Below are positions 47,335 to 47,832 of a DNA stretch of 64,000 nucleotides, in pieces. The DNA is from Botryococcus braunii. Lineage: Eukaryota; Chlorophyta; Trebouxiophyceae. Numbering within the stretch: the first letter of the stretch is position 1; each line of letters begins with the position of its first letter. A program made the position numbers and the translations under genes. The notes under the pieces are model-generated. The model did no database searches and was not told where the DNA came from. It worked only from the letters and a program-made list of their open reading frames with translations. The stretch covers positions 1 to 64,000 of the forward strand of contig MVGU01001465.1 in the NCBI GenBank assembly GCA_002005505.1, written 5' to 3'.

Positions 47335-47832
47335 TTACTCTACAAGGCCTTCAAGGTCTGAATCAGTTTCCCACTCAGACTCGTCACGAATGTTAGGGAT
47401 CAGCAAATCCTGAAAGGCCTTCACTGGAATAGTTGCCAATGCAGACTCAACAGCCAAATAAGCCGTGTGCTCAGCAAGTTCTTGCTCTTTGTTGAGCCAC
47501 TTCGTTACACTACAATACCTTCGAAATTTTTCTCTGGTGATGAAACCTGGTTCTAAATTAACGAATGATTGCTCCCAAGGAGTGAATTTGTATGCTGGAT
47601 ACGTGGGAAATCTTGAACCAAACCACGCTGGCAGAGGGAGAGGTCGGCCAACGTACAGATGAAACACGAAGTCTTTTACGATGGCAGCCCGTTCGTCAGG
47701 GGTCCGATCTCCTTGCTGTCCTCCGTTTCTGATTCTATCGTTGTACGAAGGCGGACCGGTTCTTAAACGTACAGGAACGTTGACGTTGGTAGTTTTGCGA
47801 GCAGTCTGCTTCGGTCTGCGGCGCTTGGCCAT
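47335..47832 (-). CDS. Extra ORF upstream of B gag; N-terminus resembles the histone H3 tail
   Basis: ATG at 47832 (an in-frame TTG at 47874 is ignored), 165 codons. It lies between the primer site and gag, 52 bases before the gag ATG, where most copia elements have only a leader. The first 15 residues read [23 protein letters not shown] matches the H3 tail KQTARKST (K4 to T11) in seven of eight positions and at nearly the same distance from the N-terminus. The rest ([40 protein letters not shown], an acidic end with [12 protein letters not shown]) matches no family I know. The middle looks folded and mostly helical. A basic cluster could be a nuclear signal. The H3 resemblance is seen directly; any function is inference. 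Confidence 0.7.
   Translation of the reverse strand: [165 protein letters not shown]

Follow-up and report, generated by a model that had tools for sequence, protein, structure and literature searches.

Marks on the histone H3 tail silence transposons, and a transposon protein that itself begins like an H3 tail raises the questions of whether the likeness is real, whether it is kept, and what it might be for; the answers bear on how algal retrotransposons escape silencing. The case arose in a stretch of Botryococcus braunii DNA of 64,000 nucleotides (assembly GCA_002005505.1, contig MVGU01001465.1, positions 1 to 64,000), referred to here as the window. A sequence-only reading had pointed to a copia element with an extra pre-gag ORF, here called ORF1, and had proposed that its H3-like N-terminus could engage histone writers or readers. 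The ORF is as described, with 165 aa on the minus strand behind a 5' LTR in an element flanked on both sides by GTATG, and the interpretation is plausible and was partly supported. The replacement of lysine by methionine at position 9 in sister families is more striking than the original observation.

The element and its accessory ORF

ORF1 sits between the 5' LTR and the gag of a B. braunii Ty1/copia element, which has the following parts.

48594-48598 and 41985-41989: target duplication GTATG on both flanks of the insertion (read by eye)
47899..48593, minus strand: 5' LTR, 695 bp, TG...CA, with an internal duplication of ~147 bp (self-comparison; exact ends set by eye)
47884..47898, minus strand: primer-binding-like site GGTTATGGGCCCACC, directly after the 5' LTR (sequence reading)
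47335..47832, minus strand: ORF1, the pre-gag accessory ORF, 165 aa plus stop, CDS 47338-47832 (ORF call and family matches)
47788..47832, minus strand: H3-like tail of ORF1 (predicted disordered; sequence-order and selection tests)
47788-47811, minus strand: KQTARKTT within the tail (translation)
47398..47751, minus strand: helical domain of ORF1, residues 28-145 (AlphaFold models; without Pfam family or significant fold match)
47338..47397, minus strand: acidic C-terminal stretch of ORF1, residues 146-165 (translation and model)
45108..47303, minus strand: gag-integrase frame, first ATG at about 47282 (Pfam matches)
42703..43677, minus strand: remaining pol end, without Pfam match, RNase H-like by eye
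41990..42684, minus strand: 3' LTR, 99.7% identical to the 5' LTR (LTR alignment)

The ORF1 reading frame runs from an ATG at 47832 to a stop at 47335-47337, and a frame check found the plus strand of 47335-47832 to be interrupted by stops. The primer-binding-like site is presumably primed by an initiator-tRNA half. In the gag-integrase frame gag_pre-integrs, rve and Pol_BBD scored above their Pfam cut-offs and Retrotran_gag_2 just below its own, and a Pfam search of the window copy for RVT_2 gave no match. Compared with another copy, L096, the window copy has 206 additional nt at 44730-44935 and is missing about 1.0 kb of pol at about 43563-43572; thus it is without a whole polymerase, and its ORF1 is still open. 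The duplication within the LTR lies at 47921-48066 and 48244-48390, about 324 nt apart, and is present in the 3' LTR too; similar repeats of ~150 bp were seen in some of the fetched relatives.

Paired TG...CA LTRs with a short target duplication, read by eye, were found in the window copy (GTATG), in L096 (CTTGG) and in L098 (GTAAG). In L096 and L098 ORF1 begins 67 and 65 nt behind the 5' LTR, ahead of gag, and in both the two LTRs are 99.86% identical, an identity which suggests that these copies were active recently in this strain. The gag-pol of L096 is in two frames (747 and 987 aa) and that of L098 in one (1,747 aa); L099 has a single frame of 1,713 aa, its LTRs being seen as a 169-bp repeat only, with bounds not settled. 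As in Ty1/copia, rve precedes RVT_2 in L098 and L099 (rve of L098 slightly below cut-off). These three were the only ones with a pol frame of more than 900 aa among ten long stretches selected for an open ORF1, the other seven being L095, L097 and L100-L104, and many copies therefore keep ORF1 open beside a broken gag-pol.

The window contains several other elements. Ty3/gypsy-type frames with RT, RNase H, integrase and C-terminal chromodomains lie at 2629-7296, 18419-22087 and 23559-27725, and another copia-type RVT_2 frame lies near the window end (62573-63943, minus strand). Three tandem units of 3,478 bp, 99.97-100% identical, occupy 33140-43565 and take in the 3' LTR of the ORF1 element; the array has arisen either by a recent triplication or as an artefact of assembly. 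A second copia gag region at 31722-33043, 76% identical to the gag of the ORF1 element, ends near the edge of that array.

Structure prediction, which the sequence-only reading had put forward as a check, gave two AlphaFold models of ORF1 (mean pLDDT 71.5 and 72.5) that agree broadly on a low-confidence tail, a helical domain from residue ~28 to 141 and a low-confidence acidic end. The pLDDT of the tail stayed below 50 over residues 1-24 of the first model, with block means of 46 and 51 over residues 1-20 in the second. No Pfam family matched the ORF1 family, no histone domain was found by Pfam in 32 members at E up to 1, and fold comparison of the models gave no significant match. As modelled, ORF1 is a disordered tail held out from a small helical domain with an acidic end.

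Copies and families

Searches of the B. braunii genome with three queries gave 799, 808 and 800 candidates, of which the best 150 each were scored. About 430 distinct ORF1 places were counted manually among the matches listed, 16 places being common to the first and second lists and one to the second and third. The sequence-only reading had held that an ORF broken in most copies would speak against it; the matched stretch, partial in some cases, had no stop in 127, 128 and 141 of the 150. Database relatives include gene models of Botrbrau1, which we take to be the B race of B. braunii: P0005 is 94% identical to the window protein, and P0011 matches one place in this genome at 100% identity. 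LTR elements are described as the main class I repeats of the B race (PMC11286282).

The copies fall into three families, and their ORF1 proteins are, by their sequences, plainly homologous. Family 1, to which the window copy belongs, has subfamilies 65-74% identical to the window protein and usually starts MAK[RK]R.KQTARKTT; one subfamily reads H3 residues 2-11 with S10T. The family 2 protein is 40-47% identical to that of the window and starts MARTRQTGRMSTGG, with variants, so that its beginning matches that of H3, and family 3 starts MGRTKQSGRMSTGGKRP, again with variants. In families 2 and 3 the H3-like tail is in exact N-terminal register (for example MGRTKQSGRMSTGGK), with the consensus R-T-K/R-Q-S/T-G-R-M-S-T-G. 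All Botryococcus copies come from one genome, and the loci counted below were chosen from ranked lists for diversity and are a non-random sample.

Conservation of KQTARK across related elements had been proposed as a further check, and here the outcome was divided. Of the 57 family 1 N-termini sampled, 45 retain KQTARK, 8 are without a readable motif and 4 more are altered inside it; in families 2 and 3 the motif is lacking, as H3 order is in the metagenomic relative P0013. Related elements with the ORF and without the motif do therefore exist, a case that the sequence-only reading had named as refuting, yet it applies only in part, since the H3 tail recurs in families 2 and 3 in a different version. 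Among 107 N-termini (the 108th, L123, has no readable start) 45 read KQTARK, 42 RT[RK]x[TSN]G[RQ][MI] and 2 an RKRPTGRM form, and the 18 others are mostly single changes or truncations.

In the 49 readable family 1 motifs R2 is found in 46, T3 in only 14, K4, Q5 and A7 in all 49, T6 and T10 in 47, and R8, K9 and T11 in 48. For families 2 and 3, 46 of 51 loci could be used, the excluded ones being L066 and L070 (GRM kept, first start codon gone), L065 (without GRM), L094 (cut short) and L123. Position 9 is M in 45 of these 46 and I in one, with no K or R, so that methionine or isoleucine at the target lysine in an H3-like context is confined to families 2 and 3. Counted from Met, the same 46 copies have R2 in 45, T3 in 44, R (38) or K (8) at position 4, Q5 in 40, S (25), T (20) or N (1) at position 6, G7, R8 and G12 in 45 each, S10 in 27 and T11 in 36, with G at position 13 in 16 and K at position 14 in 10 only. 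Nearly every copy sampled from these families, which have hundreds of members in the genome, thus shares an H3K9M-type tail. Since family 1 and families 2 and 3 retain different H3 residues, each H3 position from 1 to 13 is kept in one or the other.

In an alignment of 16 sequences, four of them metagenomic relatives, H3 position Q5 is invariant. In a midpoint-rooted tree of the protein body alone the metagenomic relatives group with family 1, and it is therefore possible that the ancestor was H3-like and that the likeness was later lost in P0013 and P0014.

Likeness to histone H3

KQTARKTT equals H3 residues 4-11 apart from S10T, a single conservative change, as had been claimed. The host H3 tail is canonical in the three H3 genes read, and comparison of its start with the position of KQTARKTT shows the window's stretch to be displaced by +3. 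The family 3 tail of L106, given above, is identical to H3 1-16 at 11 of 16 positions (changes A1G, T6S, A7G, K9M and A15R), and that of its sister L105 at 9 of 16.

The sequence-only reading had conceded that so short a motif might be due to chance, a source that the order tests speak against. None of 20,000 shuffles of the N-terminal 17 residues attained the H3 score of the window tail, and for four representative tails the observed score was attained in 0, 1, 0 and 0 of 200,000 shuffles. Across 12 Botryococcus tails the score p was 0.00045 or less in 11 and 0.0016 in L038. The profile of 32 members scored 14.3 bits against host H3 exon 1 and a second tail profile 13.9 bits; the maxima over 300 column permutations were 4.7 and 3.8 bits, and none of the 300 attained the observed score for either profile. 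It was further found that, among 630 distinct first-ATG ORFs of at least 60 aa from the window and the fetched loci, 42 of 49 ORFs with the family motif score 36-57, and the remaining 581 reach 29 at most, except one at 36 that is a family variant itself.

Blind profile searches of 177,635 distinct PDB sequences pointed the same way. In each search 59 of the 60 rows shown were H3, its variants or chimeras, aligned start to start, and one was an unrelated chain; there were 75 and 62 matches in all, and the E-values in the rows shown (0.1-3.9 and 0.17-4.7) are by themselves not significant, even at their best of 0.1 and 0.17. A phmmer search of the PDB sequences with P0011 alone gave nothing up to E 10. 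Among the metagenomic tails the shuffle p was 5e-5 for P0017, 0.0016 for P0015 and 0.84 for P0013, with which P0014 reads identically there; P0015 and P0017 have a weaker H3 likeness and Arg at position 9. The ORF1 tail resembles the H3 tail beyond composition.

Selection on the tail

Pairwise Nei-Gojobori dN/dS was computed for 65 of 88 fetched ORF1 loci, after removal of 20 whose length or start was not intact, 2 that start later and 1 duplicate; synonymous sites are near saturation, several comparisons were not computable, and the pairs are not independent. A dN/dS below 1 on the motif had been named as a check, and between family 1 subfamilies KQTARKTT gave 0.017-0.07 (4 of 6 comparisons computable). 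The domain gave 0.11-0.19, the linker behind the motif 0.10-0.35 (5 of 6), the acidic end 0.20-0.43 (4 of 6) and the basic residues ahead of the motif 0.54 (1 of 6). The regional values thus place the constraint on the H3-like residues and not on charge; since the linker is also constrained, in family 1 it extends past the H3-like string.

Within family 2 the tail core and the domain have the same dN/dS of 0.178, and the linker is nearly free (0.82). Comparisons of families 2 and 3 and their subgroups gave 0.08-0.19 for residues 2-9 (5 of 6) and 0.7-1.3 for residues 13-16. Constraint in these families fades after about residue 12, which is about where the order of an H3K9M peptide on G9a ends, residues 3-12 being reported as ordered there (PMC5030085). 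It is well supported by these sequence comparisons that selection keeps the H3-tail likeness.

Proposed function and alternative explanations

Taken with the analogies below, the sequences make it probable that ORF1 is an H3-tail decoy against H3-based silencing, in families 2 and 3 by trapping methyltransferases and in family 1 by serving as a decoy substrate or as a decoy for readers. ORF1 would be an accessory protein with an unstructured H3-tail mimic that projects from the small helical domain; the mimic would draw off host enzymes and readers whose targets are H3 residues 3-10, and in this way weaken the silencing of the element by chromatin. We infer that ORF1 is translated and that its product may bind and inhibit such enzymes and so counter silencing. 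The family 1 tail, in which the lysines are kept (KQTARKT), might compete with H3 as a substrate, or might become methylated and then compete for the readers of methylated K9. Met9 of families 2 and 3 would occupy the pocket of the SET domain in an H3K9 methyltransferase, so that the enzyme is trapped with SAM as it is by H3K9M. The fuller claim, that the element evolved an oncohistone-like H3K9M tail which traps the host H3K9 methyltransferase and prevents silencing, with a sister lineage using the K9 version as substrate or reader decoy, is put forward tentatively, its chances being perhaps a little short of even.

Published work gives this decoy reading a basis. H3K9M traps H3K9 methyltransferases, the peptide inhibits Clr4, and with SAM it binds the SET domains of Clr4 and G9a more strongly than does the wild-type tail (PMC5030085). 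Fusions of H3 and EZHIP lowered H3K27 methylation when residue 27 was M or I, but not when it was K or R (PMC6513997). Silent promoters of the green alga Chlamydomonas are reported to bear H3T3 phosphorylation, H3K4me1 and H3K9me1, and its transposons wake when MUT11 or MUT9 is lost or SET1 is knocked down; against a decoy, knock-down of the H3K9 enzyme SET3 is reported to have left dispersed transposons silent (PMC6952782). Other points also count against it: A7G alters the residue adjoining the K9 site, and the Arg9 of P0015 and P0017 would, by analogy, be the residue reported inactive in the EZHIP tests (PMC6513997). In family 1 two or three additional residues precede the H3-like stretch and K9 is kept, and one mechanism may therefore not fit all families. 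As to a host H3K9 methyltransferase, the exons seen were confined to SET and SRA, and a Pre-SET search matched nothing, its own controls included, so that it carries no information.

Alternatively, host enzymes might modify the tail, which chromodomain or PHD readers would then bind, so that the pre-integration complex is guided to chosen chromatin. This suits family 1, where K4, Q5 and A7 are kept in every readable motif and R8 and K9 in all but one, and the chromodomains in the three gypsy-type pol frames of the window make chromatin-directed integration plausible in this genome. However, copia targeting usually resides in the integrase itself, and the tails of families 2 and 3 do not suit a tether since they have no lysine at position 9 to be methylated. 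An H3K9M peptide is, moreover, reported not to have bound those fission yeast chromodomains that were tested (PMC5030085), and for the protein as a whole we regard tethering as unlikely.

A basic N-terminus could also be a nuclear-import or nucleic-acid-binding tail that came to look like H3 through its composition. The family 1 tail is indeed basic, as are P0013 and P0014 without H3 order, and the family 1 linker is conserved too. Yet the basic residues ahead of the motif vary, unlike the uncharged Q, T, A and T, families 2 and 3 have fewer charges and a nearly constant Met, and the order tests beat nearly all composition controls, leaving this explanation decidedly improbable.

Host H3 exon 1 spans about residues 1-35 and could have been captured, but a functionless relic of it is very hard to credit given tail dN/dS well below 1, and a recent one is unlikely since tail and host H3 DNA agree at only 4-6 of 14 third codon positions (12-13 first, 10 second), as against 6-8 of 14 third positions among H3 paralogues. 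The tail may have begun either as an old capture of H3 or by selected convergence, the sequences being compatible with both.

If the decoy reading is true, evolution would have reached the trick of a disease-type histone mutation, K9M, as an anti-silencing weapon, and ORF1 might be put to use as an encoded inhibitor of H3K9 methylation in the genetic work on algae, where transgene silencing is a practical problem.

Comparison with known systems

The element shares with Ty1/copia elements its LTRs, an integrase ahead of RT and 5-bp duplications, and differs in belonging to a Botryococcus lineage with an extra pre-gag ORF that lacks a Pfam family. Like ORF1, the VANC proteins of VANDAL transposons are transposon-encoded, and they counter host silencing, as is proposed here for ORF1; in contrast, the descriptions at hand present them as sequence-specific and do not mention histone mimicry. 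Histone mimics of the ARKS/ARKT type occur in influenza NS1, SARS-CoV-2 ORF8 and G9a, and resemble ORF1 in having a short H3-like stretch outside histones. To our knowledge these mimics are shorter than the ORF1 stretch and not Met-substituted, and we know of no histone mimic from a copia element.

EZHIP (CXORF67) is likewise described as a non-histone protein with an H3-like peptide and Met, for which Ile works too, at the target lysine (PMC6513997); unlike the retrotransposon-encoded ORF1, whose likeness covers residues 1-13 around K9, it is a mammalian host protein that mimics the K27 region and acts on PRC2. The H3K9M histone has Met9 in an H3 tail context, as families 2 and 3 do, and is reported to trap the Clr4 and G9a SET domains with SAM (PMC5030085); it is a histone and part of nucleosomes, whereas in families 2 and 3 the tail has A7G and often T6S and its carrier is a helical protein other than a histone.
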